A stretch of DNA of 52,645 nucleotides, from contig MAAL01000192.1 in assembly GCA_002163245.1 (NCBI GenBank), forward strand, positions 1-52,645, read 5' to 3'. The translations under genes were made by a program, and so were the position numbers. Below, in pieces: positions 33,169 through 48,394 of the stretch. Source of the stretch: Gammaproteobacteria bacterium 42_54_T18 (GTDB lineage: Bacteria; Pseudomonadota; Gammaproteobacteria; Pseudomonadales; Ketobacteraceae). Within the stretch, counting starts at the first letter, position 1. Every line of letters begins with the position of its first letter. The notes beneath the pieces are model-generated. The model was not told the origin of the DNA, searched no databases, and saw only the letters and a program-made list of their open reading frames with translations.

Positions 33169-33642
33169 CTATTCTCCCTGACATATTTCAGCAAACACAC
33201 CGCGGGTTAGCTTCGCTAAATCATCAGGACTTAATTCTATTTCTAACCCTCTGCGACCAGCGCTAACATAAACCGTAGGGTAATTTTTGGCTGATGAGTC
33301 AATAATAGTTTTAAGTCGCTTCTTTTGTCCAAGCGGGCTTACACCACCTAAAACGTACCCCGTCGAACGCTCAACATCAAGTTGGTTAGCTATGGCAGCT
33401 TTTTTTGTTCCAGCTGCCTTTGCGATCAGCTTCATACTTAGCATGGATGAAACAGGAACTACCCCCACCACTAGTTCTTGGTTGCCTGTAGATACGACCA
33501 AGGTCTTGAATACTCTTTCCGCAGGCACTCCCATTTTCTCAGCCGCTTCAAGCCCATAAGACTCACTAGATTCATCATGAGAATACTCATGTACCCTGTA
33601 TGAAATTTTATTCTTCTTCGCTACATTGATTCCTGGTGTCAT
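33169..33642 (-). CDS. ybaK: YbaK/EbsC-family Cys-tRNA(Pro) deacylase
   Basis: 157 residues matching YbaK: VFKTLVVSTGNQELVVGVVP, then MLSMKLIAKAAGTKKAAIA, GYVLGGVSPLGQKKRL and the C-terminal SAGRRGLEIEL. It hydrolyses Cys mischarged onto tRNA-Pro. It is the first non-cassette gene at the left end of the array: an attC lies upstream of it but none downstream, so it is probably chromosomal. Confidence 0.9.
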   Translation of the reverse strand: MTPGINVAKKNKISYRVHEYSHDESSESYGLEAAEKMGVPAERVFKTLVVSTGNQELVVGVVPVSSMLSMKLIAKAAGTKKAAIANQLDVERSTGYVLGGVSPLGQKKRLKTIIDSSAKNYPTVYVSAGRRGLEIELSPDDLAKLTRGVFAEICQGE

Positions 33643-33655: not shown

Positions 33656-33726
33656 TTCTAACGGCATATTCACCGACTTTCACGTTGCAAGGTTATCTTC
33701 AGTGTCCGATGCTATCTAAGTTAGGT
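33656..33726 (-). other. attC site, terminal (leftmost) cassette
   Basis: TTCTAAC at the left, GTTAGGT at the right, 71 bp. It overlaps the stop codon of the SDR gene to the right. It marks the distal end of the integron array, next to ybaK. Confidence 0.7.
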
Positions 33727-34269
33727 GAGATTGAGCCCACCATCAGATAAAATGATCTCGCCGGTTAAATAACTACTCGAAGTAAGCATTGACGCTGTAT
33801 GAGCGATCTCACTTGGTTTCGCACCACGCTTCATCGGGGATTTTTCTTTCCATAGTTTGTGTGCCTCAACCCAACTTTCCGTCATAGGAGTATCTACAAA
33901 CCCTGGAGCAATAACATTAACCTGATAGAGCTCTCGCCATACTTCTGCCGTTGCTTCTTTCAGAGAATCATGGGGAATCATCGCATTTATCCCAGCATTG
34001 TTCACTAATACATCTAACCTCCCATGACAAAGCAAAACGTCAGATATCAATCTTTTGGTTTGAACCTGATCAGATAAATCGGCCTGAAAATAGGTTGCGC
34101 TCGGAATAGATCTAGCTAAATCTTCACCCTCCATCACTGATGACCGGGAATGCAGCACAACAGTAAACCCATCTTCCGCAAGTTGTAGTGCAATCGCTTT
34201 ACCTATACCTGATGTCGACCCTGTTATGAGAGCCACTCGTCCTTTATTTTTCTCTTGATGATAACTCAT
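33721..34269 (-). pseudogene. SDR cassette gene with catalytic core deleted
   Basis: 182 codons, all in frame. The N terminus is a normal SDR: TGSTSGIG near 16-23, NNAG near 90. After WRELYQVNV the sequence passes straight to IAPGFVDTPMTESW, which in intact SDRs lies some 60 residues later. The Ser, Tyr-x-x-x-Lys active-site block is therefore missing. Both sides of the break normally carry a V-N-V motif, suggesting deletion between short homologous stretches (DNA near 33905-33930). It cannot act as a standard SDR. Last cassette of the array. Confidence 0.75.
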
Positions 34270-34310
34270 GACAACTCCGTTTTACTAACGAGTCTAATAT
34301 TCAGATTGAT

Positions 34311-34565
34311 TCAACTACGAACCATTTTATTGGCAAAAACATCTACACCATTATACCTGGTTTTAAATTCACTAGTGATTATGAATCCAAAGACCTTGGA
34401 TATGCATCCAACAATGACGCCTGAGTAATTTCTCACGAAAGACGAAACTTTCTCTCTATGCACGACTCTAGTAAAAGATTCATTATATTCCGTTAGACCA
34501 GCTTTTAGGGCCGAGAATTTTTCATCTTGAGGTGACGAACGTTTTGTTAACTTAATTTTGCCCAA
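34311..34565 (-). CDS. Hypothetical ORF in the degraded distal array
   Basis: 84 codons starting with TTG and overlapping the end of the sulfotransferase fragment by 19 bp. Basic N terminus, hydrophobic VIVGCISKVFGFIITSEF segment. No family, no clear attC after it and no ribosome-binding site. It may be a remnant of a decayed cassette rather than a working gene. Confidence 0.25.
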   Translation of the reverse strand: MGKIKLTKRSSPQDEKFSALKAGLTEYNESFTRVVHREKVSSFVRNYSGVIVGCISKVFGFIITSEFKTRYNGVDVFANKMVRS

Positions 34566-34990
34566 CTAGGCTTCATAGCCAGAAAACTTTTTCTATCATT
34601 TGTTACTGGAAAAGGTGCCTTTGGTATTGGTGCATCTAAGAATCTACACAAGCTATCCCAACCGTCAGTAACGCTATACTTTAATAGCCTTTCTTTTGGT
34701 ACAGCGTCAATCACACTCTCAATATGCTTTTTGTATACGCCTATACAGTGCTCTTTATCAAGATACTTTTCTGAAAACGTTTGCTCCAATATTAAGCGCC
34801 TAGACATTGCCACCCTTCGTCTCGCGTCTATATTCGGATTAAGATCTCCCGATAACATCGCATCAAAAATCGTGCATTTTGCACTTTCATACCACTCACC
34901 TGGATCTCTCAGTGTTAGGATAACCCTTGCCTCTGGATATTTCTTTAAGAGAAATGGGAGAAAGGTAACCGTAGGCCAGTCAACTGCGGG
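34547..34990 (-). pseudogene. Sulfotransferase-family C-terminal fragment (5' truncated)
   Basis: 148 codons open from 34990 without a start codon at the 5' end. The sequence DWPTVTFLPFLLKKYPEARV, ILTLRDPGEWYESA, then VPKERLLKYSVTDGWDSLCRFLDAPIP (split) matches the C-terminal two thirds of P-loop sulfotransferases. The N-terminal P-loop is missing. The break coincides with the attC remnant at 34990-34996, so a deletion removed the gene start together with most of the neighbouring attC. Confidence 0.75.
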
Positions 34991-34996
34991 TTAGCT
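34990..34996 (-). other. attC remnant (R'' half only)
   Basis: GCGGGTTAGCT directly 3' of the 118-residue gene matches the right end of an attC; the left end and inner part are gone, replaced by sulfotransferase sequence. Confidence 0.5.
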
Positions 34997-35353
34997 CTAT
35001 GCGTGATATGAACAACCTTCGATTAGAACCTTACCTTCACATTCTCTAAAACCATACATAAGTAAGCCCGGTTCTTTACGATGTTCTAATTTTACTTTCC
35101 ATAGTACGATCACATGATCTGGGTTTCTGTGAATTGCCAATAAATCCGCAATGGTGTGTTTACCATATGTATTATAGTTTTCTTCAATCTGACGATTGAA
35201 TTCCTCTTCAGGGAAATGTTCGGAAGGATCCTCATCAATAAAGTATTGAATGAAACCGCTGTAGTCCTTATCATTCCATGAGCTCTCGGTATGTTCTGCT
35301 AGCGGCTGTACTAAATCGAGTATTTCCTTGTCACTCAGACCTTCAGATTTCAT
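34997..35353 (-). CDS. Hypothetical cassette protein (SnoaL/NTF2-like)
   Basis: 118 residues, acidic and soluble. Pattern ILDLVQPLAEHTESSWNDKDYSGFIQYF near the start, then strands HVIVLWKVKLEH and GLLMYGFRECEGKVLIEGCSY, consistent with a small cone-shaped NTF2-like fold; this is inferred from shape, not from a recognised signature. It has an attC half site at its 3' end and is transcribed like the rest of the array. Confidence 0.6.
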   Translation of the reverse strand: MKSEGLSDKEILDLVQPLAEHTESSWNDKDYSGFIQYFIDEDPSEHFPEEEFNRQIEENYNTYGKHTIADLLAIHRNPDHVIVLWKVKLEHRKEPGLLMYGFRECEGKVLIEGCSYHA

Positions 35354-35383
35354 CGTACTCTCTCTATTTTTTTATGGGTAATT

Positions 35384-35406
35384 TTCCGAGACTGGCGTTG
35401 TTATGT
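35384..35406 (-). other. attC remnant 3' of the AAA kinase-like gene
   Basis: GGCGTTGTTATGTG at the 3' end of the P-loop gene matches the right end of array attC sites; no matching left end lies before 35353. Partial site. Confidence 0.4.
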
Positions 35407-35889
35407 GTATTTTTCATTTCGAGTAACCATTCTTTTTTGGCCACAGTAATTATCATAGAATTTCAGATGAGATACCTCAGAAAATGTATCATTTCTTTCG
35501 GTATATTGCCCGATCCATCCAATTAACATCTCTAAATTTTTGTCTTGTGCTTCTTTATTTTCATATTTATGCGGTTCCCATGGGCGATTTTTTGCATTCG
35601 AAATACATGCCTCAACCGGTAGATTCATAAATATGATTTCACTAGAGTATTCTTCAACCAGTTCTAGCAAGTCGGTATAGCAGCCTTCTATAGCCCACCC
35701 CTCATGGGATTTAATGAATATATCAATCTCCTTCCCAGACTCGTCTACGGACTTTCTTTTGGGAGGAACAGTAGGCTTCCAAGCAAGCGTATCCAGGTCT
35801 AAGTGAGCTAAACCATGAGCTTCACACAAATTCTTTGCAAAGGTGGACTTACCAGAGCCTGAATTACCAAATATCAGAATATTGATCAA
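35401..35889 (-). CDS. P-loop AAA / adenylate-kinase-like protein (FlaR-type)
   Basis: 162 residues from a TTG at 35889; the longer frame to 36021 only translates attC sequence. INILIFGNSGSGKSTFAKNL carries the Walker A motif, followed by HLDLDTLAWKP. This resembles the small topology-modulation (FlaR) / shikimate-kinase-like proteins annotated as AAA family ATPases. A late WEPHKYENKEAQDKNLEMLI segment is typical of the group. Cytoplasmic; substrate unknown. These proteins are common cargo of chromosomal integrons. Confidence 0.75.
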   Translation of the reverse strand: MINILIFGNSGSGKSTFAKNLCEAHGLAHLDLDTLAWKPTVPPKRKSVDESGKEIDIFIKSHEGWAIEGCYTDLLELVEEYSSEIIFMNLPVEACISNAKNRPWEPHKYENKEAQDKNLEMLIGWIGQYTERNDTFSEVSHLKFYDNYCGQKRMVTRNEKYT

Positions 35890-35906
35890 ATTTAGAATCC
35901 TCGGAG

Positions 35907-36004
35907 CACATAATGCCAACAACAACGGCGTGACTGTTTGCGTAGCCCTAACCGCTGGCGCCGAAGCGTTTCCATGCAGGTCGGATGGACTATTCTTGTT
36001 AAGG
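35907..36004 (-). other. attC site
   Basis: Left end ACATAATGCC, right end CTTGTTAAGG, about 98 bp. The left box ends AAT rather than AAC; a second box CCCTAAC lies at 35946-35952. It follows the peroxiredoxin remnant. Confidence 0.55.
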
Positions 36005-36317
36005 TTTTTCTTCGCTGACAAGCATGTCTACGAATTTTTCAAATCACCTCTACCTGAAGGGTTGGCAGATTGAGAGCCTTTATAAAGGCTAGGTTGTTAT
36101 CACTTACAAGTTCAAAAGGTAGATGTAACCTATTTTTTACCTCTTGTTGGTAGTCTGTGGTTTGAGTACTTAAGCCATAGACATCTGCGCCTAGCGCTTT
36201 CAGCTCACTGTAATGGTCTCTAAAAGAGCATGATTGCGGAGTGCAACCTCTTGCTCCAGGTATTTGCTCCCAGCCATCAGGTAGTTGATTAAGTGATCCC
36301 ACTTGGGCTCCTTGCAT
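35999..36317 (-). pseudogene. Peroxiredoxin cassette gene with internal deletion and frameshift
   Basis: The frame from the Met at 36317 reads PDGWEQIPGARGCTPQSC, with the peroxidatic Cys, then SFRDHYSELKALGADVYGLS and LHLPFELVSDNNLAFIKALNLPT, as in redoxin-type peroxiredoxins. It then runs to a stop after LQVEVI (36039). A second frame just beyond reads EKFVDMLVSEEKP and stops at 35999, which looks like the true C terminus. Around 40 residues in between are missing. Upstream codons to 36335 translate attC sequence. The active-site Cys survives, but the fold is probably broken. Confidence 0.65.
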
Positions 36318-36407
36318 GTTTAACGCCGCAAACAAGGAAGTACGTTTTCAGTGCGTCCCTTTTTTTGACCTAATTCTGTACAATGTAGATGCTGACAGCT
36401 TTAAGCA
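36318..36407 (-). other. Degenerate attC site
   Basis: GTTTAACGCCGC at the left is a good attC end. The right end near 36400 (CAGCTTTAAGC) is one base off a GTTTAAGC box. It separates the peroxiredoxin remnant from the 55-residue membrane gene. Confidence 0.45.
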
Positions 36408-36568
36408 TTGGCTACAGCTTTCGATGTAAATGCAAAAGGTATTGCCAGTGGCCCAAATATGCCGCCCATGAGCCCCCAAAAGACTGGCTTTGCACCTCGC
36501 TTCTTCGCAATGTAGTGACATACGAATATGCTGAGTATGTTAAGTACCACCAAAGCGTAAACTACCAT
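36401..36568 (-). CDS. 55-residue small membrane protein
   Basis: A short ORF with GGAG upstream. It encodes a hydrophobic N-terminal helix (MVVYALVVLNILSIFVCHYI), a basic turn KKRGAKP, and a second Gly-rich helix VFWGLMGGIFGPLAIPFAF. The pattern charged-turn followed by W-G-(L/I)-(M/L)-G-x-x-F-G-P-(L/F) is shared by many tiny bacterial inner-membrane proteins. It is a real cassette candidate, bounded by attC-like sequence on both sides. Function unknown. Confidence 0.65.
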   Translation of the reverse strand: MVVYALVVLNILSIFVCHYIAKKRGAKPVFWGLMGGIFGPLAIPFAFTSKAVANA

Positions 36569-36592
36569 ATAGATTTTTCTCCGTTTGTAGGG

Positions 36593-36665
36593 GTTAAACG
36601 CCCTTAAATTCAGAACGCCCGCAGAAATGCGCGTTTTTGCGTCGTTTTCACTGCGTTTGTTACGT
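36593..36665 (-). other. attC site
   Basis: GGTTAAACGCCC / AGAACGCCC at the left and TTTGTTACGT at the right, about 73 bp, with a GC-rich inner palindrome (ATGCGCGTTTTTGCGT). Follows the VOC pseudogene. Confidence 0.6.
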
Positions 36666-36668
36666 TTT

Positions 36669-37028
36669 TCACACAGAAAAAACTATTTTATTTTTATCTA
36701 AATCTCTCGCATATGCAGAAAATTTAGGCCCTCGTTGACCTGGCTCGCCCTCACAAGTGCCGCCCAATTCAATAACTTTTTTATGTAGCCTCTTAACTTC
36801 TTCAGTAGAACCAACATTAAAACCAATCATTGTTCCATTTCCATTACTTGCGGGCTCCCCATTAATGGGTTTAGCTATTGCAAATGCAAAATCTTCACAC
36901 TACCAAAAGGTCATTCTTTCCGTTGATAAAACTTGGTTTAATTCTGTTTTTTCGAAGAGTGAATCATAGAATTTAATCGATGCTTCCATGTTGTTTGTTC
37001 CAAGAACACAATAGTCCATTTTCATCAT
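36669..37028 (-). pseudogene. VOC-family (glyoxalase-like) gene with one amber codon
   Basis: 119 codons, start MMKMDYCVLGTNNMEASIKF. The VOC (glyoxalase/bleomycin-resistance) pattern is complete to the end: FYDSLF, then FAFAIAKPINGEPASNGNG, MIGFNVGSTEEVKRLHKKV, and FSAYARDLDKNKIVF. Codon 43 is TAG (36900-36902), in ERMTFW-stop-CEDF, and it is the only lesion. The gene is either a recent pseudogene or read by suppression. Family members bind metals and small molecules. Confidence 0.75.
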
Positions 37029-37079
37029 TTAATATCTCAAGCGATCAATAAAGTTTCATTATATTGTTAATGCTTTGCT

Positions 37080-37186
37080 GGCCAACGATGAACACCCCAA
37101 TTTAGTCTCCATTTTTACCGCCAACATGACCCGAGCGACGACAGGAGTGTCAGCCGGCCAACGGGAGTAGAATACATGTTATTGTT
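37080..37186 (-). other. Very degenerate attC-like stretch
   Basis: GGCCAACGATG at 37080 and ATGTTATTGTTGCG near 37176-37186 loosely resemble attC ends, and the position 3' of the leftward gene at 37200 is right. No gene is seen between 37029 and 37199. Confidence 0.25.
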
Positions 37187-37199
37187 GCGTATCTTTCGC

Positions 37200-37580
37200 T
37201 CACTTCTCATACTCGTTTTTTGTGAGGCGCTCTATACTGCTACCCACAAATTTCTCAGGCCAAACAATTCTTTGTTCGTTGTCATTTCCGGAATCATTAA
37301 TTGTTGCAGCCAGAATCTCATATTCATTAAAATCGTCAGCTTGACTTACTTCGTTAACAGATTTTTTCCACCAAAACCAAATCTCTTGTTCATCATTCAC
37401 CCTGTACCAACTGAATGGACCATGGCCTTGGCACCACATTCCATACTTAGTTGCTAGCACTCCAAGCGTAAATGGCGACGGCTCCTTAGCAATAACATCC
37501 ACGCCAACTTTCAATCTGCATTCTACAGATAGCAGGGAACTTGAAAACAAACATAAAATCACAAACGCTATAGTTCTCAT
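37200..37580 (-). CDS. Exported hypothetical cassette protein
   Basis: 126 residues from the ATG at 37580 (GAGG upstream). Signal peptide MRTIAFVILCLFSSSLLSVEC; the mature part is Trp-rich (MWCQGHGPFSWYRV, IWFWWKKSV) with two Cys that may pair. Likely periplasmic. No family recognised. It has a degenerate attC after it and an attC end (ATACAAC at 37596-37602) before it. Confidence 0.6.
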   Translation of the reverse strand: MRTIAFVILCLFSSSLLSVECRLKVGVDVIAKEPSPFTLGVLATKYGMWCQGHGPFSWYRVNDEQEIWFWWKKSVNEVSQADDFNEYEILAATINDSGNDNEQRIVWPEKFVGSSIERLTKNEYEK

Positions 37581-37595
37581 AAAAAACCTCAGTGT

Positions 37596-37620
37596 ATACA
37601 ACGCCCCGCCCAGGCAACGA
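37596..37620 (-). other. attC remnant fused to the GNAT fragment
   Basis: ATACAACGCCCCGCC matches an attC left end; the right end is missing and GNAT coding sequence follows after about 10 bp. Confidence 0.35.
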
Positions 37621-37628
37621 TTTTCAGC

Positions 37629-37760
37629 TTACCCACAGACGGAACGAAAAAGCGCTGACTCTAGACTCCAGCATTCATTCCATGGCTCATTGGAAAATAC
37701 CTCGGAGTATAATTGAGCACAAGCTACTAAATCCCTCTCTTTAATTTCCCGTATTATCAT
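37629..37760 (-). pseudogene. GNAT acetyltransferase N-terminal fragment
   Basis: 43 codons. MIIREIKERDLVACAQLYSE followed by VFSNEPWNECWSLESAL is the typical N terminus of a GNAT acetyltransferase (strand 1, helix 1, and the NEPW loop). The frame then ends abruptly, without the acetyl-CoA-binding half, close to an attC remnant at 37596-37620. The rest was lost by deletion. Confidence 0.65.
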
Positions 37761-37771
37761 CCATTACCTAC

Positions 37772-37836
37772 TCATAACGCCAAAACAGGCTCCGAAGCGA
37801 TTTTGGCGTAGGCCGGCTTGAAGGTTCTTGTTAGAC
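37772..37836 (-). other. attC site
   Basis: TCATAACGCC at the left, CTTGTTAGAC at the right, 65 bp, with inner GCGATTTTGGCG pairing. It lies between the GNAT fragment and the VOC remnant at 37831-37913. Confidence 0.75.
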
Positions 37837-37913
37837 ATTTTTATCCTTGAAATAGTATAGCTCCACCGTTTCATTTAAGTTGGCACCTGCAATTTAATGA
37901 ACAAAGTGGCCAT
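37831..37913 (-). pseudogene. VOC-like N-terminal remnant with frameshift
   Basis: MATLFIKLQV in one frame continues as ANLNETVELYYFKDKNV in the next, then stops in attC sequence. The joined sequence resembles the beta-strand and helix start of VOC proteins (KLxVANLxxTVxFY). Length 83 nt, not a multiple of three. A short remnant; low certainty. Confidence 0.3.
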
Positions 37914-37933
37914 AATTACTGAGTAAAGTGACT

Positions 37934-37940
37934 TGTTAAA
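37934..37940 (-). other. attC right-end remnant next to the YefM-YoeB chimera
   Basis: ACTTGTTAAAT, immediately 3' of the chimera stop codon, matches an attC R'' end. The left end is not identifiable. Confidence 0.35.
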
Positions 37941-38120
37941 TCATTTAGCATAATGGTATCGGCAAGAAATAACTATTAGTTGGTTTTCGTCTACTGCATA
38001 TACCAATCTATTGCTGCCATCGATTCTCCGCGTGACAATCGTGTAATCTACGCCATTAACTACCTGATCTAAAACACTTTTCAATTGATTTCTCGCGTCT
38101 GAAAAACCCACTACTTTCAT
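37941..38120 (-). pseudogene. YefM-YoeB chimera: antitoxin head fused in frame to toxin tail
   Basis: 59 codons from the ATG at 38120. Residues 1-32, MKVVGFSDARNQLKSVLDQV and NGVDYTIVTRR, are the N terminus of a YefM/Phd-type antitoxin (DNA-binding half). Residues 32-59, RRIDGSNRLVYAV, then ICRYHY-like ISCRYHYAK, are the C terminus of a YoeB/Txe toxin, which includes the catalytic His-Tyr tail. The segment between (antitoxin C-terminal neutralising half, toxin N terminus) is missing. The junction is in ACGCGGAGAATCGATGG, where both parents encode -RR-. The upstream TGTACA operator is still present. Confidence 0.8.
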
Positions 38121-38130
38121 GACCCCAACC

Positions 38131-38181
38131 TTACATGTAGAATATATCGAACAAGCATAAACTTGCACCCTATATTGTACA
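38131..38181. promoter_or_regulatory. YefM-type operator region
   Basis: TTGTACA with its palindromic core TGTACA lies at 38175-38181, and a TTACATGTAG palindrome at 38131-38140, upstream of the YefM-YoeB chimera. YefM antitoxins are known to bind TGTACA-core palindromes. The ancestral operator therefore seems preserved. Confidence 0.5.
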
Positions 38182-38192
38182 TGTGAGGAGTG

Positions 38193-38235
38193 ATTTAACG
38201 CTTTGACCTACCGCCACAGGTCCGCAGTGTTAGTC
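38193..38235 (-). other. Short attC site
   Basis: ATTTAACGC at the left, GTTAGTC at the right, 43 bp, 3' of the gene at 38230. Shortest of the clear array sites. Confidence 0.6.
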
Positions 38236-38541
38236 TGTGAACCCATCGCGGATAAACCTATTCCGACGCTGATCGAAGTGGTCTTCACTACAAGATATAA
38301 ACTTCAATGCGAGCTCCCAACCAATTCTCGTAAACCTATCTGTTTCGGCTAGCTCATATTCATTCATGACTATATTCATAGCTTCTACTGTGTGCTGAGC
38401 TTCATTCTCGCCAACCTTAACCTCCAATGTATCGTAATTTTGTATCATCCATTCCTGCAGTTCGACTGGGGACAACTTACCATCGATACATTCACGAATT
38501 ATTGCAACTAGTTGGTTCTTTGTTATCTCTTTCATGCTCAT
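38230..38541 (-). CDS. Hypothetical cassette protein (103 residues)
   Basis: Soluble, acidic, mostly helical: KNQLVAIIRECIDGKLSPVELQEWM, then EAMNIVMNEYELAETDRFTRIG and a C-terminal DHFDQRRNRFIRDG. No family I can name; the layout resembles small immunity-like proteins of cassette arrays. attC ends lie on both sides. Confidence 0.65.
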   Translation of the reverse strand: MSMKEITKNQLVAIIRECIDGKLSPVELQEWMIQNYDTLEVKVGENEAQHTVEAMNIVMNEYELAETDRFTRIGWELALKFISCSEDHFDQRRNRFIRDGFTD

Positions 38542-38676
38542 TTAACGTTTATCTCAATTGAGGCGTTGTAATTTACGCCTTCAGGCTAAGGCTCTGGTGT
38601 GTTCCATAAATTGGCCAATGACTACAAATTCCACACCCCCCCAAGTTGATTTTCACCTGTCAGAAAAATGTTAACG
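38540..38676 (-). other. Long degenerate attC-like region
   Basis: ATTTAACG at the left is a good end. A possible right end GTTAACG is at 38670-38676. Inner GCGTTGTAATTTACGC is a hairpin. No gene is seen in this stretch. Confidence 0.4.
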
Positions 38677-38715
38677 AAAGCTGCCATCGTAAATGACATT
38701 TTCTCAACGATAGGA

Positions 38716-38886
38716 CTACCATATTTTTTTAGCACACTCTACATATTTGCTTGAATATGAAATTTCCGGATCAAAATACTTTGCTCTGGCTTCGGCAGAT
38801 GTAAAGTCTCTAAAAAGTGGGGAAGACTTCCTCCACTTCCCTCTGAATTTAAAATTTACGACATCAGTGTTTTGTGTAAGCTTCAT
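38716..38886 (-). CDS. 56-residue ORF, ATGA-coupled to the upstream gene
   Basis: Starts at the ATGA overlap with the DUF6151-like ORF. Sequence MKLTQNTDVVNFKFRGKWRK, then SSPLFRDFTSAEARAKYF, and YVECAKKIW at the end. Basic and aromatic; no family recognised. A 4-bp ATGA overlap is the classic sign of translational coupling, but it could also arise by chance in a decaying region. The 3' side has no clear attC. Confidence 0.45.
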   Translation of the reverse strand: MKLTQNTDVVNFKFRGKWRKSSPLFRDFTSAEARAKYFDPEISYSSKYVECAKKIW

Positions 38887-39200
38887 GCTAAAAGAATATA
38901 GAAGCTCGTTTCTTCGAGCTTGCCATTTGTCAGATTAATAAAGTTACGCATATTTTTTAACTTATCGCCCGCATCAATGGCCTTCACAACCGGTTCTCTA
39001 TTGCGAAAGAATGGTGATGGAGTATTCTTTTTACCGAACAACCCCCTTAGCATAAAGGAAAGCGGAATTTTGGGATGCGCATCTTGTGGCATTTTACCTT
39101 TGGCATACTTACCAAATGCCTTCATTTTAACAGGCCCGATAACTTTGAGCTTTCCTTTTACAGTGCCACATGTGCAACTCAAATTAGTAACGTTTGACAT
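38883..39200 (-). CDS. DUF6151-like protein, apparently shortened internally
   Basis: 105 residues. N-terminal LSCTCGTVKGKL is the Cys-x-Cys-Gly start of GFA/DUF6151 proteins. The segment beginning GPVKMKAFGKYAKGKMPQ matches the family's C-terminal part. In the usual roughly 200-residue family a central part with further Cys residues lies between these two; here it is absent, so zinc or glutathione binding is likely lost. The comparison is from memory of the family; an in-frame deletion is the likely cause. Confidence 0.5.
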   Translation of the reverse strand: MSNVTNLSCTCGTVKGKLKVIGPVKMKAFGKYAKGKMPQDAHPKIPLSFMLRGLFGKKNTPSPFFRNREPVVKAIDAGDKLKNMRNFINLTNGKLEETSFYILLA

Positions 39201-39230: not shown

Positions 39231-39296
39231 ACCTAACGTCTTTGTAATGAGCCCGACACAGGAGTGTCGATTTAACAATCTTGTTCTGTGTTACAG
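39231..39296 (-). other. attC site
   Basis: ACCTAACGTC at the left and TGTTACAG at the right, about 66 bp; inner GACACAGGAGTGTC hairpin. It overlaps the end of the gene at 39272. Confidence 0.55.
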
Positions 39297-39736
39297 TACT
39301 GGCCAGTATAGGCCGTGCTTGGCTCCTTAATATAGCGAAGGAGCTCGTAAACAATAAATTCCTGTGTTTTTTCAACATCGAGATCAGACTCAATACTAGA
39401 AGCTATCATATATGTCATGTCATATAGAAGATTTGCCCAAACAGATTCTTCATCTGAAGGCAGCCACATGCCAACTAGAACAATTACTCGAATGGAATCC
39501 TCCAAAAACACAATTCGTGCAATTTCTACGCAACCATCATTGCTAGAGACGCCTGGGCCAGGTAACTCTATAGCTTGTTCATCAACTACTTTAACGGATC
39601 CGTACCGAATGTCTCTCCTTGAATCAAACACACCCTCAAAGCACTCTTTCAATTTTTCTTGAACAGTGTTTCGGTTTTGATTCGTTTCTAGAGCGATTGC
39701 ATCGACTACGTGATGAAATACGTCAGAAATTAACAT
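39272..39736 (-). CDS. Hypothetical cassette protein; start region probably damaged
   Basis: 154 residues from the first ATG. The frame is open upstream to 39886 and encodes a sensible extension (RAWIDGGKLSISLSNSFPDD, IENLTNTWGM) without a start codon. An ATG at 39885 lies in a different frame. One missing base after that ATG would join it to the extension, so the gene probably lost its original start by a frameshift. The remainder is acidic and soluble, with no family recognised. The C terminus reads into attC sequence. Confidence 0.5.
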   Translation of the reverse strand: MLISDVFHHVVDAIALETNQNRNTVQEKLKECFEGVFDSRRDIRYGSVKVVDEQAIELPGPGVSSNDGCVEIARIVFLEDSIRVIVLVGMWLPSDEESVWANLLYDMTYMIASSIESDLDVEKTQEFIVYELLRYIKEPSTAYTGQYCNTEQDC

Positions 39737-39893
39737 CCCCCACGTATTGGTCAGATTCTCGATACAGTCATCGGGAAAGCTATTTGATAGCGAAATTGAA
39801 AGCTTACCGCCGTCAATCCAAGCTCTAAAGAATTCCTGGCGATTTTTTCTTCTAGGATATCTGATGGATAATCTAATGTATTCATATTAATTC

Positions 39894-40432: not shown

Positions 40433-40497
40433 CGTTTTAAATTCGTGTTCATCCGTTAGTTAGAAAAACGGAGTAGAGAACCTGATGTCAGTTAAAG
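40433..40497 (-). other. attC site
   Basis: TCCTAACGCCCG at the left and AGTTAAAGCGGG at the right, 65 bp, with complementary CCCGTTTTAA-like arms. A 118-bp non-coding tail separates it from the lipoprotein gene. Confidence 0.6.
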
Positions 40498-40615
40498 CGG
40501 GGAAGTTCAGGTAGCTTATAGATACTCTGGTTAGAAGGGCAATGCCATTGCTCATTACTGCACGCAACCCGCTTTCATTCTTAGAGCTTTAAAAACTATT
40601 GGCCTCCTAATATAT

Positions 40616-41224
40616 CTACAAATCAACAAACTCAATTTTTTGTATTTCCGAAATCAATTCCCCTGTAGGAGTATACATTTCGATTGTTCCATTCGTTAGG
40701 GAAAATATAACTGCTGTTGTCGCAGCTCCAATCACCATCCCACCAGCCATCGAAACTGGTGAATTAAATGATGCATTTAATCCCACTGTCGCTCCGGCTT
40801 CAAGGCTATCTTCTGGTTTTGAATTTAAAAGAAAGTATAATTTTGGATCTATCTCCTTGTTCTTTGGCAACCATAGTCCACCAACACCACCTGAAAATGT
40901 AAACTGTTCTCTATGCCTTTCTTCGTAGTCAGTTATCACTCCAGTAGAAAGATACTTCTCCGCACGTTCCTCAGATAGAACTATAACGCTATCTCCTTGT
41001 CCGTGATAATAGAAACCATCACTATCTTCTCCTACAAGTTCGTATTTTCCCGCTCTCAATCCAAATACATATTTAAAATTCAGCAAACCACGGGTTTCTG
41101 TCGTATAAATATCATCAGCAATAACAAATAAACTTCTTTTACTCGGTTGATTCAAATCAACCACCTTGCTCGCACAACCTGATACAAATACAATCATGGA
41201 TAGTAGTACAACTAACTTCTTCAT
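40616..41224 (-). CDS. Lipoprotein of unknown function
   Basis: 202 residues. Signal MKKLVVLLSMIVFVSGCAS has a lipobox VSGC with the lipidated Cys at residue 17. The body is beta-rich (FKYVFGLRAGKYELVGED, GFYYHGQGDSVIVL) with a Gly-rich hydrophobic stretch GGMVIGAATTAVIF near residues 160-175 that could insert into a membrane. No family recognised. Serine after +2 is not Asp, so outer-membrane sorting is expected. Confidence 0.7.
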   Translation of the reverse strand: MKKLVVLLSMIVFVSGCASKVVDLNQPSKRSLFVIADDIYTTETRGLLNFKYVFGLRAGKYELVGEDSDGFYYHGQGDSVIVLSEERAEKYLSTGVITDYEERHREQFTFSGGVGGLWLPKNKEIDPKLYFLLNSKPEDSLEAGATVGLNASFNSPVSMAGGMVIGAATTAVIFSLTNGTIEMYTPTGELISEIQKIEFVDL

Positions 41225-41260
41225 ATTTCATTCCAAAAAGTATCTACGTAATTTAAATAT

Positions 41261-41347
41261 TTCTAACGCCTTAAACACAGGCGGAAATTAGCGCAGCTAA
41301 TTTGTGTCCGAGGAGCTACGCGACTGAAGTACTTTTCCTTGTTATGT
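41261..41347 (-). other. attC site
   Basis: TTCTAACGCC at the left, CCTTGTTATGT at the right, 87 bp, inner hairpin AATTAGCGCAGCTAATT. Follows the intact SDR. Confidence 0.8.
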
Positions 41348-41398
41348 GTATTAGCTATGTAAAATGGCAATACACCATGTATTGAATTTATATACATG

Positions 41399-42106
41399 CT
41401 ATTTTTTTGTTAAACGTAATGTGATCTCTTCCGGACAACAAGAGTCACTTGAATTTATGGCTAACATCATAGCTTCAGCAATATCTTCAGGTCTTAGCAT
41501 TAGCTCTTTATTTATGGATACTTCTGCAGTCATATCCGTATCAACAAAGGCAGGGTTAATTAAAACGACTTTTATGCCGAATTCTCGGAGTTGTTGATAA
41601 CAACTTAAACTCCAGCCTCTTAATCCATGCTTTGTTGCTGCGTAAGCACCTACACTGCTCATGCCCTCAATAGCCGCTACACTACCTAAGTTAATAATAA
41701 TGCCCGATTCTTTATCTTTCATATAAGGTGCAAACCAGCGTGTTAAACGCATAGGCACTAAAAGATTTAGCTGCATGGATTGAGTCCAAGCATCAGCATC
41801 ACCGTCTAACGCATGACCTTTTGTGAAATTACCAGCATTATTGACTAGTAAATCAATGCCGCCATCATCTAATAAAGATTGACATAATTTGTCAATGGCA
41901 TAATTATCTTGTAAATCAAGTTCAAAGCAACTGACCTTCGCAGCGCCGCTTTCATTGCATAATTTAGCGGTTTCATCTAATTGTTTTGTATCGCGACCAA
42001 TTAGAATAAGAGAGGCGTTTTCTGTCGCTAATCGCTGAGCCATAGCTCGACCAATGCCTCTACTTGCTCCTGTAATTAACGCCCTTTTATTTGTAAGCTT
42101 GCCCAT
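41399..42106 (-). CDS. Intact short-chain dehydrogenase cassette
   Basis: 235 residues. TGASRGIG (about 11-18), NNAG near 90, the catalytic Ser in LGSVAAIEG, and YAATK are all present, unlike in the deleted SDR at 33721. It ends ITLRLTKK. Substrate unknown. Its 3' attC is at 41261-41347. Confidence 0.85.
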   Translation of the reverse strand: MGKLTNKRALITGASRGIGRAMAQRLATENASLILIGRDTKQLDETAKLCNESGAAKVSCFELDLQDNYAIDKLCQSLLDDGGIDLLVNNAGNFTKGHALDGDADAWTQSMQLNLLVPMRLTRWFAPYMKDKESGIIINLGSVAAIEGMSSVGAYAATKHGLRGWSLSCYQQLREFGIKVVLINPAFVDTDMTAEVSINKELMLRPEDIAEAMMLAINSSDSCCPEEITLRLTKK

Positions 42107-42135
42107 CTTGATTCCCGTAATTAATTTAATCTTTC

Positions 42136-42142
42136 ACATAAC
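42136..42142 (-). other. attC left-end remnant
   Basis: ACATAACGC just upstream of the SDR start matches an attC left end; the usual right end is lost and the reading frame of the 89-residue gene runs into the remnant. Confidence 0.45.
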
Positions 42143-42145
42143 GCT

Positions 42146-42415
42146 TCACGCACTTGATGGCGCTGCTTTCTCAAACATACGACCTTGAGATTTAAGCTCC
42201 CGTTCGAGTTGCCAAGACGCCTCAAGAATTTCATCGGTGCACATTACGATATCTTCATGCCCTTCATCCGATTCGATGATGTGGGCTACACTATCATCGC
42301 TTAACCTCATACGAAGAAATGCTGAATTCCAGTGTTCAGGGGTAGCTTCGATTAATCTCGTACCTATAGTCGAATAGAGCCCTCTTAATGAGTATTCCAA
42401 ATCTGCAATATCCAT
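42146..42415 (-). CDS. Hypothetical cassette protein (89 residues)
   Basis: Acidic soluble protein: DIADLEYSLRGLYSTIGTRL, EATPEHWNSAFLRMRLSDDS, and VMCTDEILEASWQLERELKS. The last residues (FEKAAPSSA) translate attC-like sequence, so the original C terminus may be slightly altered. No family recognised. Confidence 0.6.
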   Translation of the reverse strand: MDIADLEYSLRGLYSTIGTRLIEATPEHWNSAFLRMRLSDDSVAHIIESDEGHEDIVMCTDEILEASWQLERELKSQGRMFEKAAPSSA

Positions 42416-42431
42416 ATTTATATCCTTTTAC

Positions 42432-42500
42432 ACATAACGCCTTCATCTTGAGCGCACGAAGTGTGCCTCTAGAATGGCATTGCTCTGCTTTCGCCTGTAT
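42432..42500 (-). other. attC site, left end clear
   Basis: ACATAACGCC at the left; the right end is not clear because the operator of the VapBC-type module begins at 42503. A GCGCACGAAGTGTGC hairpin lies inside. Confidence 0.55.
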
Positions 42501-42502
42501 AC

Positions 42503-42523
42503 TTGTACAAACACATTGTACAA
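42503..42523. promoter_or_regulatory. Paired TTGTACAA palindromes (toxin-antitoxin operator)
   Basis: Two perfect TTGTACAA palindromes at 42503-42510 and 42516-42523, 13 bp apart centre to centre, just upstream of the antitoxin start at 42542. Their position in the promoter is what autoregulating antitoxins bind, and it excludes the in-frame start at 42503. Confidence 0.65.
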
Positions 42524-42541
42524 TCTTATTTGGTGCCCGTC

Positions 42542-42772
42542 ATGCAAACTATCAATATTAGCGATTTTAGAGCTAACCTATTGAATTACTTGGAGAAAGC
42601 AAACTCCGGAGAGCCAATATCTGTTACGTCTAACGGCAAATTGCTGGCAACAATCGCTCCTCCTATTAATCAAAGAGCAACAGCTAAGCAGCAATTACTC
42701 TCCCTCGCATCAACTGCCAAAATTCATGATATAACCACCCCTACAGATTCTGACTGGGATGCTTTGTCGTGA
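42542..42772 (+). CDS. Phd/YefM-type antitoxin of a VapBC-like module
   Basis: 76 residues from the ATG at 42542. QTINISDFRANLLNYLEKAN followed by GEPISVTSNGKLLATIAPP is the Phd/YefM DNA-binding fold. The C-terminal tail ends DSDWDALS and would bind the toxin. It overlaps the toxin gene by 4 bp. Transcribed rightwards, opposite to most cassettes, from its own promoter (TTGTACAA operator). Confidence 0.85.
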   Translation: MQTINISDFRANLLNYLEKANSGEPISVTSNGKLLATIAPPINQRATAKQQLLSLASTAKIHDITTPTDSDWDALS

Positions 42773-43164
42773 TTTTAATGGATACCTGCGCAATCATTTG
42801 GGACGCTCTTGAACCTTCTAAGCTTACTCAAAAAGCCACTAAGGTAATTGAAAATGCCGACAAACATCATGCATTAATAATCTCAGACATTTCGCTTTGG
42901 GAAATATCAATGCTAATCAAAAGACGTCGCTTAGAAGTAGATACAACCGCCACCAATTTTTTAAATCTATTTCTTCAATCTAGAAACATCTCCGTTCAGT
43001 CTATCTCTCCCGAAATCGCGGAGCTATCGGTAAATTTTGGTGATGAGATTAACAAAGATCCTGCAGATCGAATCATTGCCGCCACATCAGTCATACTAAA
43101 TGCGCAGCTAGTTACCGCCGATGAAAACCTTCGAGAAAGCGACATGCTCGAAACTATTTGGTAG
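42769..43164 (+). CDS. vapC: VapC-family PIN-domain toxin ribonuclease
   Basis: 131 residues starting GTG. PIN-domain acidic residues are all present: D5 (MDTCAIIWD), E45 (SLWEIS), D97/D100 (NKDPADRIIAA) and D118 (VTADEN). VapC toxins cleave tRNA or rRNA. Paired with the antitoxin upstream through a 4-bp overlap. Confidence 0.88.
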   Translation: MILMDTCAIIWDALEPSKLTQKATKVIENADKHHALIISDISLWEISMLIKRRRLEVDTTATNFLNLFLQSRNISVQSISPEIAELSVNFGDEINKDPADRIIAATSVILNAQLVTADENLRESDMLETIW

Positions 43165-43266
43165 CAGAACGCCGCAAGCACATGCCGGAGGTTAATGGCG
43201 ACTTTTGTGCGCTTTTTGCACAAAAGGTGACAGTGACCGGAGGTCTTGTACCTTGCCTTGTTATGA
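43164..43266 (-). other. attC site
   Basis: GCAGAACGCC at the left and CTTGTTATGA at the right, 103 bp. Inner arms GGCGACTTTTGTGC / GCACAAAAGGTGAC pair as a long hairpin; the same arms recur in the attC at 46633. Confidence 0.8.
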
Positions 43267-43268
43267 GA

Positions 43269-43291
43269 TTTATACCATAATTAGGTATAAA
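43269..43291. promoter_or_regulatory. Inverted repeat, ParDE operator candidate
   Basis: TTTATACC - ATAATTA - GGTATAAA is a perfect 8-bp inverted repeat directly upstream of parD. Position fits autoregulation by ParD. Confidence 0.6.
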
Positions 43292-43312
43292 TTGGTATTT
43301 TAAGGTGGTGAT

Positions 43313-43552
43313 ATGAGCAAGAACACAAGCATTACACTGGGTGAGCACTTTGATGGTTTTATTGCAGGCCAAATTAATAATGGCCGATTTGCCTCTGCAA
43401 GTGAGGTAGTGAGAGCTGGTTTGCGCATACTTGAGGATAATGAACAGAAAATGACAACCTTGAGACACTTGCTTGATGAAGGCGAACAAAGTGGAACTGC
43501 AAAGTACAGCTATGAAAGCCTGATGAATGAAATTGATGATGAACTTGGTTAA
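43313..43552 (+). CDS. parD: ParD-type antitoxin
   Basis: 79 residues. SITLGEHFDGFIAGQI then GRFASASEVVRAGLRILED is the ribbon-helix-helix start of ParD. The C-terminal helix MTTLRHLLDEGEQSG binds ParE. GTGGTGATATG precedes the start. Stop and next start overlap (TAATG), so it is coupled to parE. Transcribed rightwards. Confidence 0.9.
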   Translation: MSKNTSITLGEHFDGFIAGQINNGRFASASEVVRAGLRILEDNEQKMTTLRHLLDEGEQSGTAKYSYESLMNEIDDELG

Positions 43553-43854
43553 TGAAATCATTTACTTTAACTCACAAAGCTAGAGCAGATATAAAATCAA
43601 TTTTTATATACACCCAGAAAAAATGGGGCAAAGAACAGCGTAAAATATATGCTAAGCAATTTGACGATACATTTCACATGCTTGCAGATAATCCTAATAG
43701 CGGCAAGGAATGTGACTATATAAAATTGGGATATAGAAAATTCCCTCAGTCTAGTCATATCATCTTTTACCGAACACTTAGCAACAATGAGATAGAAATA
43801 GTTCGTATTCTTCACAAGCGAATGGATGTACGAACTCAACTAACAACCTCATAA
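43552..43854 (+). CDS. parE: ParE-type toxin
   Basis: 100 residues of the RelE/ParE fold: FTLTHKARADIKSIFIYTQ, then QFDDTFHMLADNPNSGKEC, YRKFPQSSHIIFYR and IVRILHKRMDV, all matching ParE toxins of type II modules (gyrase or ribosome inhibition depending on the branch). The terminal HKRMDVRTQL is typical. Its 3' end abuts the attC at 43849. Confidence 0.9.
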   Translation: MKSFTLTHKARADIKSIFIYTQKKWGKEQRKIYAKQFDDTFHMLADNPNSGKECDYIKLGYRKFPQSSHIIFYRTLSNNEIEIVRILHKRMDVRTQLTTS

Positions 43855-43920
43855 CGCTTGCATGAGCGGCCGAAGGTCCGGCCGCGTCTTATTGCGGCTA
43901 ACTCCATGCACTTGTTAACT
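43849..43920 (-). other. attC site
   Basis: TCATAACGC at the left and CACTTGTTAACT at the right, 72 bp, inner perfect arms GCGGCC / GGCCGC. It overlaps the toxin genes at both ends. Confidence 0.85.
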
Positions 43921-44235
43921 TTCGGGCCCTGCACGTTCTTCTAGTAGGAATTTACGTAAAACCCGCTCACTTCGCATTACATAGATAATGATTATTTTGG
44001 ATTTTTCAGTTCGATAGAACACGCTGCACGGCCCGACTATAACTTCACGATATATTGAGTTTTTTGGTAGCTCTGGTGGTATTCGGCCTGATTTTGGTTG
44101 ATCTTTGAGTTGCTCGACTCGGTCGAAGACGGATTGAACGAGTTTCTGCGCAGCATTAAATTTATCCAACGCTATAAAATCGGCTATTTCATCTAGTTCG
44201 TTTAGGGCTGGTTCCGTCCAAACTATTTGAGCCAT
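43915..44235 (-). CDS. RelE/ParE-family toxin
   Basis: 106 residues. AQIVWTEPALNELDEIADFI, then FDRVEQLKDQPKSGRIPPEL, YREVIVGPCSVFYRTE, and a terminal VMRSERVLRKFL. It is the standard RelE/ParE fold. The antitoxin gene overlaps its start by 13 bp. Transcribed leftwards, back to back with parDE across one attC. Confidence 0.88.
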   Translation of the reverse strand: MAQIVWTEPALNELDEIADFIALDKFNAAQKLVQSVFDRVEQLKDQPKSGRIPPELPKNSIYREVIVGPCSVFYRTEKSKIIIIYVMRSERVLRKFLLEERAGPES

Positions 44236-44480
44236 TTACTCATGCGTTCCTTCGCTTGGGTATGTGAAATAATACGGCCTTCTGAAAAAGCGGCCTCTCC
44301 ACGAGCCAAGCCTTCTAGGAGATTCACGCGGTTTTGCATTAACTCAAAGTCTTCTACATCAACTAGATATGCTGAAGGCTTACCATGCTCAGTAATGAGC
44401 ACTGGCTCCTTAGATTCGTGTAAATCTGCGAGGATTCTCGTGGCCTGGCGCTTTAATGTAGTAACTAATTCAACCTTCAT
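44223..44480 (-). CDS. Phd/YefM-type antitoxin
   Basis: 85 residues. VELVTTLKRQATRILADL, then EPVLITEHGKPSAYLVDVEDFEL is the Phd/YefM fold. The C-terminal tail ISHTQAKERMSKWLK would contact the toxin. Preceded by the AGTGATA inverted repeat at 44483-44502. First gene of its module, before the RelE/ParE toxin. Confidence 0.88.
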   Translation of the reverse strand: MKVELVTTLKRQATRILADLHESKEPVLITEHGKPSAYLVDVEDFELMQNRVNLLEGLARGEAAFSEGRIISHTQAKERMSKWLK

Positions 44481-44482
44481 AA

Positions 44483-44502
44483 AGTGATACTATTCTATCA
44501 CT
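44483..44502. promoter_or_regulatory. Inverted repeat, antitoxin operator candidate
   Basis: AGTGATA - 6 nt - TATCACT immediately upstream of the antitoxin gene at 44223-44480; position fits autoregulation. Confidence 0.6.
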
Positions 44503-44525
44503 CTGAGAATTGCAATAGTTTAGAA

Positions 44526-44582
44526 AGTTAACGTTCACCGCAGAAGCGTGTTTTTACGACTCTCTGCCGGTGCTTGTTAGGT
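44526..44582 (-). other. attC site
   Basis: AGTTAACG at the left and CTTGTTAGGTGC at the right, 57 bp, with inner CACCGCAGAAGC/GCCGGTG pairing. Follows the DUF2314 gene. Confidence 0.85.
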
Positions 44583-44588
44583 GCATAC

Positions 44589-45107
44589 TTAGTAATTAAT
44601 TGATTCATAGCTAGAAACCCCAATATATTTATCGTATTCCAACTTCTCTTTTTCAGATTTCAATTTGTTTCTAGCAACTCGAATAGTAAATCCTCCTTTT
44701 ACTTTACCGTTGTCATTTACCATCCAATCAAAAACATCATCTGATTCAAACCCTAGTCTTTGACCAACCTGGTGCCATTTTTTGAGTTCTTTTGGTACTT
44801 CAAAAAAGACACCTGAAAGAATTTTTTCTTCTGGATGATAAGCAACATTACTGAGCCAGATATATAAAAATTGATCTTTTCCAAGCTCCTCGGAAAGATC
44901 TGGGTTTCTGAAACGTAACTTGGCCATATGCTCACCTTCACCACCAGCTTTAACTAAATCAATGAATTGATAAATAGTATTTGCGGTAAGTGCATATGCC
45001 TTTTTCATTTCTGTATCCTTTGAATCAAGAGCAATAAATTTTGGTTCAGTTGCATCCACATGTCCAAATCCGAAGATGCCTAAAAATAGTAACAGTAATA
45101 CTTTCAA
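44589..45107 (-). CDS. DUF2314-family exported protein
   Basis: 172 residues. Signal peptide MKVLLLLFLGIFGFGHVDA. DUF2314 features: MKKAYALTANTIYQFIDLV, AKLRFRN, YIWLSNVAYHPEEKILSG, and a C-terminal VFDWMVNDNGKVKGGFTIRV. The DWM...G-GGFT-R block is the strongest mark. Family function unknown; cargo of integrons in several bacteria. attC on both sides. Confidence 0.85.
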   Translation of the reverse strand: MKVLLLLFLGIFGFGHVDATEPKFIALDSKDTEMKKAYALTANTIYQFIDLVKAGGEGEHMAKLRFRNPDLSEELGKDQFLYIWLSNVAYHPEEKILSGVFFEVPKELKKWHQVGQRLGFESDDVFDWMVNDNGKVKGGFTIRVARNKLKSEKEKLEYDKYIGVSSYESINY

Positions 45108-45122
45108 TGAATTCCCCCTATC

Positions 45123-45182
45123 ACCTAACGTCTAACAGCTGATGCGCTGTATTTCGCGTCATTTAGGCTGTGCTTGTTATGT
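45123..45182 (-). other. attC site
   Basis: ACCTAACGTC at the left and CTTGTTATGT at the right, 60 bp, inner AGCTGATGCGCT. Follows the zinc-ribbon gene at 45177. Confidence 0.85.
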
Positions 45183-45599
45183 TTTAGTGGCATCAACTAA
45201 CTCCTGGTTGAACGCCTCAAGCTCTTGAATATAGAGATTGAGCGAGCCTTCACTGCAACTCATTAGTTGGTTCAGCCATTCAATATTCTTTTGTCCATCA
45301 AAGCTGCCTTCGCCAAAGCGTAGAAAACCAGAAATAGAAGCCTGAATAACAGGTAAGTAGTGGCTCAGTTTAATGATGGTTTCTCCGTCCTTTTTTGAAG
45401 GCACCCTTTTGTTTCTAAATTCGTTCCATCGTTCGAAATATAAGCACAGGCCTCTTTCTTTAAGAGAACTTAGTTCAGATGGCCTATATCCAGAATTTTC
45501 CTTCATGAAGCACTGCATACAAAGGCCATCACACTTTTCAAAAGTGCTAGGTAGCACGAGAGATTCACAAGTATTGCATTTTACTCTTTCAGATTTCAT
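45177..45599 (-). CDS. Cysteine-rich zinc-ribbon-like cassette protein
   Basis: 140 residues from the ATG at 45599; earlier in-frame codons translate attC sequence. CNTC near residue 8-11 and a second cluster KCDGLCMQC near 22-30 form a probable zinc-binding knuckle pair. The remaining helical part (LSHYLPVIQASISGFL, then MSCSEGSLNLYIQELEAF) has no family I can name. Likely cytoplasmic. Confidence 0.65.
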   Translation of the reverse strand: MKSERVKCNTCESLVLPSTFEKCDGLCMQCFMKENSGYRPSELSSLKERGLCLYFERWNEFRNKRVPSKKDGETIIKLSHYLPVIQASISGFLRFGEGSFDGQKNIEWLNQLMSCSEGSLNLYIQELEAFNQELVDATKT

Positions 45600-45617
45600 G
45601 CGCTCACTCAGAGATAA

Positions 45618-45701
45618 ACATAACGCCTTTAGTTGACACATTTTGATTGTTGTGACGAAGGAGCAACCAGTAAAATGTCGCTCAATCTAATCTTGTTAAG
45701 C
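45618..45701 (-). other. attC site
   Basis: ACATAACGCC at the left and CTTGTTAAGC at the right, 84 bp, with arms GACACATTTT / AAAATGTCGC. Follows the CbrC-like gene. Confidence 0.85.
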
Positions 45702-45704
45702 GGG

Positions 45705-46232
45705 CTACTCATAATCTGCTACAAACCTGTGCGTGTTACAATGGTTGCAGACAAATAGGTGAGCCCATAAAGGGCTATGCTCCCGACTAAGCTCCTTTAC
45801 CATCTCTTCGTAATTTAGCCCATTATCATTTAGTGTTTGTTGAATATCAAACTCCAACTCACTTTCCATAAATTTAAGCTCTGCCCAATTGGTACGACCT
45901 AACAGTTTACAAAAATCTTTACAATGTACAGGCCAAGGATCTCCTTGAGCCGAATAGTATCCCGGAGTCTTGCGTAACAATTCATCCAGTTTGGTTTCGT
46001 CGCCTACCTCTTCTAGCGCACCATCATCGACAAATTCACCATCAAATTTTGAGGCCGCCGAACCATTTTCTATACACCAGGGGCAAATATTCTCAATTTC
46101 TATATATGTATAAAATGGACCAACATAGCGCCATCCCTTTTTTTCGCCACAACATGAACAAGAACCAGAATGTTTTTCAAATACACCAGATTTTACTGGA
46201 TCATCATGGTATTTGAAATTTGGAAGAGTCAT
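45705..46232 (-). CDS. CbrC/UPF0167-family protein
   Basis: 175 residues. The hallmark start LPNFKYHDDPVKSGVF, then CSCCGEKKGWRYVGPFY (C25, C27, C28), ICPWCIENGSAA (C50, C53) and a Cys-containing C terminus CNHCNTHRF are all present. CbrC of E. coli is regulated by CreBC and has been linked to colicin E2 tolerance. The four-plus Cys pattern suggests zinc binding. Cassette with attC on both sides. Confidence 0.9.
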   Translation of the reverse strand: MTLPNFKYHDDPVKSGVFEKHSGSCSCCGEKKGWRYVGPFYTYIEIENICPWCIENGSAASKFDGEFVDDGALEEVGDETKLDELLRKTPGYYSAQGDPWPVHCKDFCKLLGRTNWAELKFMESELEFDIQQTLNDNGLNYEEMVKELSREHSPLWAHLFVCNHCNTHRFVADYE

Positions 46233-46245
46233 AGGGTTCCTATTC

Positions 46246-46311
46246 GCTTAACGTCTAGCACCAACTGTGGCGCGCCTTCTGCACCAACTTGTCTGAATGC
46301 GTTTGTTATGT
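46246..46311 (-). other. attC site
   Basis: GCTTAACGTC at the left and TTTGTTATGT at the right, 66 bp; arms GTGGCGCGCC / GCACC. It follows the broken small gene at 46324. Confidence 0.85.
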
Positions 46312-46323
46312 GCTTTACCCATT

Positions 46324-46619: not shown

Positions 46620-46632
46620 GCTCCCTCACGAC

Positions 46633-46737
46633 ACATAACGCCTTGCTCATTTGCCGTAGGCTATTGGCGACTTTTGTGCAGATCCACCGCACAAAAGGTG
46701 ACAATGGCCAGAGGTTAAATGCAGCACCTGGTTATGC
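46633..46737 (-). other. attC site
   Basis: ACATAACGCC at the left and CTGGTTATGC at the right, 105 bp; inner arms GGCGACTTTTGTGC / GCACAAAAGGTGAC also occur in the attC at 43164-43266, pointing to a common origin. Confidence 0.85.
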
Positions 46738-47049: not shown

Positions 47050-47069
47050 ATTCTGATTCCATCAAGCGC

Positions 47070-48387: not shown

Positions 48388-48394
48388 TAATTAC

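Follow-up and report, generated by a model that had tools for sequence, protein, structure and literature searches.

The integron described here raises the question of why cassette genes far from the integrase end are broken so often, and whether their decay requires a process of its own. The analyzed window, a stretch of 52,645 nucleotides from Gammaproteobacteria bacterium 42_54_T18 (contig C109), belongs to a 199-contig draft genome of 6.66 Mb with an estimated contamination of 3.93%. In it, the integrase gene intI is located on the plus strand at 51502–52289, with the putative attI/leader region at 51160–51476; the cassettes run leftwards to about 33.65 kb, mostly on the minus strand, and an intact YbaK-type gene lies beyond them (33169–33642, minus strand). 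The first-pass annotation had proposed a deletion-prone process acting on old cassettes. The reading that accounts best for the pattern is decay by deletion in the oldest and least maintained part of the integron, and not a new mechanism.

Decay is strongly clustered by position. The array was split into 38 cassette units, whose borders and states (intact or broken) were assigned by hand, and the boundary between the proximal and distal halves was taken over from the first-pass annotation. The proximal half (40433–51146, minus strand, with two toxin-antitoxin units on the plus strand) comprises 18 of these units. Deletion lesions were present in none of the 18 proximal units and in 11 of the 20 distal ones (one-sided Fisher test, p = 1.4e-4; permutation, p = 2.2e-4), and lesions of any kind in 1/18 and 13/20, respectively (p = 1.5e-4). 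When four remnant units were dropped (34 left, seven with a deletion), the clustering had p = 9e-4. Genes nearer attI are thus mostly intact, as had been claimed. The sole apparently broken proximal unit is a hypothetical gene at 46324–46619, read by eye in two frames without a profile scan. Among 20 proximal proteins scanned with Pfam, 12 cover nearly the whole family, one has only TPR repeats, and six gave no match, including that of 49319–49642, which has a DNA relative with 97% identity over 377 bp. A Phd-like antitoxin (42503–42772) matches only positions 1–39 of 74, but a gapless alignment of 740 bp was obtained between its cassette and a relative.

Taken together, the junctions point to a common type of event. 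Nine deletions of the window were tested (E1–E8 and E10), of which seven are in distal cassettes, one in a distal attC site, and one, E5, in intI; E1–E6 are intragenic, and E4 is a fusion of yefM and yoeB. Junctions were placed by explicit two-part alignment to parental references, and the null was obtained from deletions simulated in the same references, mutated to equal divergence. With the best-aligning references, the summed longest exact run was 38, compared with 21.9±3.1 in the null (none of 50,000 draws reached 38; p < 2e-5), and the summed 20-base similarity was 86, compared with 54.0±6.1; every leave-one-out p was at most 3.4e-4. In aggregate, the parental ends share bases beyond chance, in the manner of short direct repeats. 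References of our own choice gave a run of 44 (null 22.3) and the most favorable ones 47 (null 21.9), but we relied on the best-aligning set instead. Taken singly, E1 passed on similarity, and E6, E8, and E10 showed the same direction short of 0.05, the references for E8 being distant (67% protein identity for the peroxiredoxin). Candidate repeats seen by eye in E4 (RR codons) and E5 (TGGCA) were not counted. The test covered junctions with a parental reference, and the AAA–SnoaL, SnoaL–sulfotransferase, sulfotransferase–GNAT, YefM attC–remnant, and GNAT–attC junctions and the 3′ end of DUF6151 were left out; for the sulfotransferase junctions the reason was that none of its relatives, which occur in nine other genomes out of 115 searched, exceeds 45% identity.

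The lesions themselves are readily followed along the distal half, where the broken genes and gene remnants are on the minus strand. Six of its genes had been named as broken, and all were confirmed by Pfam coverage, except that the GNAT gene was judged by eye; the deletions were confirmed by DNA relatives where such were found. The whole distal half was searched against 57 genomes, that of the window included, and three distal stretches each against 174; these searches scored few candidates per genome, and relatives may have escaped them. Proceeding from the attI side, a DUF5076-like gene (39272–39885) has an apparent frameshift near 39845, read by eye without a confirming relative. The DUF6151 gene (38978–39200) has lost 318 bp at a shared AGTT (39144–39141) and 21 bp at 39057–39050, and its 3′ end enters other sequence; Pfam matched it in two stretches, the best covering positions 125–185 of 188. 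The same genome has an intact copy with a 190-codon open reading frame (ORF) in its contig C128 (L025), and the sister genome G003 has a full-length sequence (L028). Only 4 of 259 aligned bases differ from L025, yet the window copy carries two internal deletions; deletions keep pace with substitutions in this gene, although it was picked because it is broken. It is followed by gene remnants (38598–38978) with apparent frameshifts near 38720–38640, again read by eye with no confirming relative; a scan of their part 38719–38886 gave no family above the cut-off. An intact gene of 103 amino acids (38230–38541, minus strand) has an attC site from which, compared with L034, 14 bp are missing (at about 38228).

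At 37941–38168, the N-terminus of YefM is fused to the C-terminus of YoeB by one deletion of 332–337 bp, depending on the reference, with the junction within about 38045–38025. The ORF joins positions 1–32 of 74 of PhdYefM to positions 51–80 of 80 of YoeB (Pfam), and the deletion was measured against eight loci from seven genomes in which both genes aligned, with reading frames checked only in L019. A single deletion cut both antitoxin and toxin; disabling the two at once may allow such a pair to be lost safely. An apparent C-terminal remnant of another cassette gene (37836–37900), read from the sequence, is followed by an attC-like site (37836–37772), and a GNAT-like remnant of 43 codons (37629–37760), named by eye and with no Pfam match, enters the right half of an attC site. 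The VOC/glyoxalase-like gene (36669–37028) is full length in comparison with L036 and bears an in-frame stop codon at 36902–36900; the gene at 36401–36568 looks intact. The peroxiredoxin fragment (36047–36335) has lost its N- and C-terminal parts (Pfam covers 39–101 of 124) and is joined, through a joint block at 36056–36047, to the C-terminal end of a gene that is YdeI-like by eye (36003–36056) and has a full ORF in contig C191 of the same genome (L026). For the peroxiredoxin, the DNA search of 174 genomes gave no match beyond the YdeI-like tail, and a protein-level search of 115 genomes gave, apart from itself, one distant relative; a search of genome contigs gave five relatives, the best of which, from a Terriglobia metagenome-assembled genome, served as the E8 reference.

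Two intact-looking genes, AAA (35401–35889) and SnoaL (34997–35353), precede the sulfotransferase (34550–34990), which has lost its N-terminal third (the Pfam match starts at 73 of 215) and is fused with the SnoaL cassette at about 34990. Two GNAT-like genes form a chimera at 34311–34550, with a 31-bp deletion (TTGG, 34411–34408) and a fusion at CTTTGGATT (34392–34384). Finally, the SDR gene (33721–34269) has lost 210 bp in frame at a 14-bp repeat (33918–33905) that is alike at 12 of 14 positions in L029; its best Pfam stretch covers positions 5–105 of 236, and a second one passes the threshold. Intact-looking genes are thus interspersed among the broken ones, and the distal half also holds point lesions, namely the VOC stop codon and the apparent frameshifts read by eye.

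Several deletions cross cassette borders. The peroxiredoxin and YdeI-like cassettes, the two GNAT cassettes, and the SnoaL and sulfotransferase cassettes were fused in this way with the removal of attC, most of the attC of the SnoaL cassette being lost. The earlier statement that both neighbors of each broken gene remain fails at these junctions, and the phenomenon is broader than first described, since it includes fusions, attC loss, and point lesions. For the attC sites, a matrix trained only on 22 sites from loci outside the window was used; it replaced a first scan with strict boxes. Only scores of at least 21 were considered, because thresholds of 8 to 12 separated the array poorly from shuffled sequences. 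At this level, the proximal half has 15 sites and the distal half 2; shuffled arrays average 0.6 each, and a stretch of 18 kb of neighboring chromosome has 1 on each strand. The attC site of the second cassette (50226–50112) has a 13-bp tandem duplication that is not present in the similar attC at 48490; because of it, slippage may also produce gains.

The integrase gene shows the same kind of lesion, as had been noted. In comparison with the intact intI of L151, it has an internal deletion of 177–178 bp, joined at about 51975–51980 and out of frame; a profile search matched TIGR02249 at positions 1–155 and then 216–314 of 315, in different frames. Of the traits that define a sedentary chromosomal integron, the array of attC sites is present, whereas the functional integrase gene is represented only by a pseudogene. 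Because TIGR02249 positions 156–215 are gone and the frame is broken, the element is a decayed integron and not a working one. The sister genomes G001 and G003 appear to share another intI deletion (L137, L138), distinct from that of the window. In G001 it spans 299 bp, and the corresponding sequence of L151 contains a 7-bp repeat; in G003 the gene, read by eye, departs just past the junction and reaches a stop codon farther downstream. The intI gene of the window was broken separately from the deletion seen in these two sister species. The leader has matches in the window's own genome and in all four sister genomes searched, 12 in these five genomes with the window included; the other copies are in contigs C24 and C128 of the same genome and in G001–G004. 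Among the 11 copies outside the window, nine were examined for intI in the fetched DNA (C19 and C192 of G002 were left out): eight lack it, and the ninth (G001:C248) adjoins a 22-residue intI fragment. In G002, the leader is conserved at C64:25173–25487 with no adjoining intI match. No orthologous array was found in the DNA fetched; at E up to 1e-4, YbaK and the leader are the only two stretches of this sister contig that match the window array.

We consider it likely that the array is a decaying sedentary chromosomal integron, in which unrenewed distal cassettes under relaxed selection are eroded between short direct repeats. New cassettes enter an integron at attI, and the distal half should for this reason be its oldest and least transcribed part. 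Selection would no longer keep the genes there, and the main agent of erosion would be deletions, about 14 to 340 bp long, between short direct repeats, with some point lesions in addition. The molecular route would probably be slipped-strand mispairing or a related RecA-independent one. Because such deletions ignore cassette borders, they would truncate genes, merge cassettes, and remove attC sites, and once its attC is gone a segment could no longer be excised cleanly; the same type of lesion would have broken intI. RecA-independent deletion between short direct repeats leaves one repeat copy at the junction, and the junctions described here resemble it in this respect. The dN/dS values of broken genes relative to their relatives are low (0.07–0.10 for VOC; 0.04–0.08 for SDR, where dS is above 2), which suggests that these genes died recently after long constraint; of the 21 comparisons made, six had a saturated dS and a further four a dS of about 2 or above.

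Some results weigh against this interpretation. The states of the units were assigned by hand and the boundary follows the earlier annotation; moreover, ORF length was the sole ground for calling five proximal units intact, and a sixth matched only TPR repeats. With the least favorable references, the run measure was marginal (28 against 22.0±3.0, p = 0.039; similarity 70 against 53.6±6.2, p = 0.006), and without E7 it was not significant (p = 0.24). Singly, the run measure fell below 0.05 only for E2, E3, and E7, and neither E4 nor E5 showed an excess in the junction test. Where dS was not saturated, low dN/dS was obtained in intact and broken distal genes alike, so that the contrast expected of relaxed selection was not seen, and the proximal gene at 49319–49642 gave 1.67, on very few changes. 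Since intI has one visible lesion and some distal genes have two or three, distal decay may predate the loss of intI. Furthermore, the array may not be frozen, because another integron integrase, this one intact, is encoded at C117 of its own genome (L150:781–1749) and may act in trans. It scores 381 bits, where the cut-off is 265, and shares about 35% identity with the broken intI over the N-terminal part.

A deletion process that targets cassette arrays and acts on old cassettes above the genome-wide rate, for example through lagging-strand slippage induced by attC hairpins, would fit the deletion-heavy decay of DUF6151, where 259 bp show only 4 substitutions beside two internal deletions, and the differing ways in which intI is broken or missing across the genus. 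However, when six deleted segments (E1, E3–E6, and that of the sister intI) were folded with RNA parameters, five were within 1.6 SD of shuffled sequences. Only the YefM-YoeB segment was more structured (z = −3.4), and the idea of hairpin-driven deletion was rejected; E2, E7, E8, and E10 were left out of the folding. Several deletions are also located inside genes, away from attC. We therefore regard such a process as improbable. The same holds for its stronger form, in which a specific, high-rate microhomology deletion in the arrays of the genus erases genes and attC sites and turns the integron, from its distal end, into immobile DNA. Relaxed selection together with a general deletion bias explains the pattern, and no process special to old cassettes is needed or was indicated by any test: five of the six segments folded have no unusual structure, intI beside attI was also cut, and point lesions occur. 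Of the earlier proposal, the distal clustering has stood, and the microhomology exceeds random expectation with the best-aligning references, more weakly with the worst. A shared mechanism is upheld in aggregate by the junction repeats, but textbook short-repeat deletion suffices for it.

It is very unlikely that the junctions are assembly or library artifacts, even though the genome is a draft with some estimated contamination and there are no reads to inspect. The shared repeats are at most 14 bp, shorter than the usual assembler k-mers; a stop codon and attC decay occur in the same stretch, the lesions cluster by position, and sister genomes carry the same lesion type in intI. Still less credible is off-target recombination by the integron integrase, an activity reported for a plasmid integron (PMC10127599): the junction repeats differ from one another and do not form a common GTT-type core, although no dedicated search for a junction motif was made, and intI itself is affected. 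Equally hard to credit is the retention of in-frame deletions for useful shortened or fused proteins. Four of the six intragenic deletions (E1–E4) keep an open frame, but by our own arithmetic four or more would do so by chance in about 10% of cases, and an open frame more readily catches the eye. In addition, the SDR deletion takes out the stretch in which the usual active-site motif lies.

Published accounts contain comparable cases. Pseudogenes of intI are common in sedentary chromosomal integrons, which the present element resembles in this trait, but the corresponding part of that paper deals with intI and not with polar cassette decay or junction sequence (Nemergut 2008, PMC2426708). In Treponema, attC sites and cassettes likewise outlast intI (PMC3607928), while here intI persists as a broken gene and the cassettes have mapped deletions. 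The remnant in Xanthomonas fuscans 4834-R shares a truncated intI, attI, and a pseudogenized cassette, although it has few cassettes and, in the portion available, neither a gradient nor a junction test (PMC3826837). Some Vibrio cassettes also hold decayed genes; the clearest example there has premature stops, which its authors called surprising (PMC11014356), whereas here deletions dominate and are distal. In an integron literature search limited to open-licence papers, no title or opening of an abstract described polar, repeat-joined cassette deletion. According to two papers, integron cassettes hold few or no pseudogenes, which the authors attribute to cassettes being kept alive by selection or by regular rearrangement. 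The present array is a useful counter-case. With a broken integrase, intact cassettes near attI, and decayed ones far from it, it offers a natural test of the renewal idea and suggests the outcome when renewal stops; it also shows how simple deletions, by removing attC, would fix cassettes in the chromosome.

In addition, an Rfam scan of positions 30000–52645 gave no match at E up to 1. Three consecutive toxin-antitoxin cassettes, two of them reversed, are located at 42503–44480, a few intact units to the attI side of the decayed stretch, and might protect their surroundings from loss.

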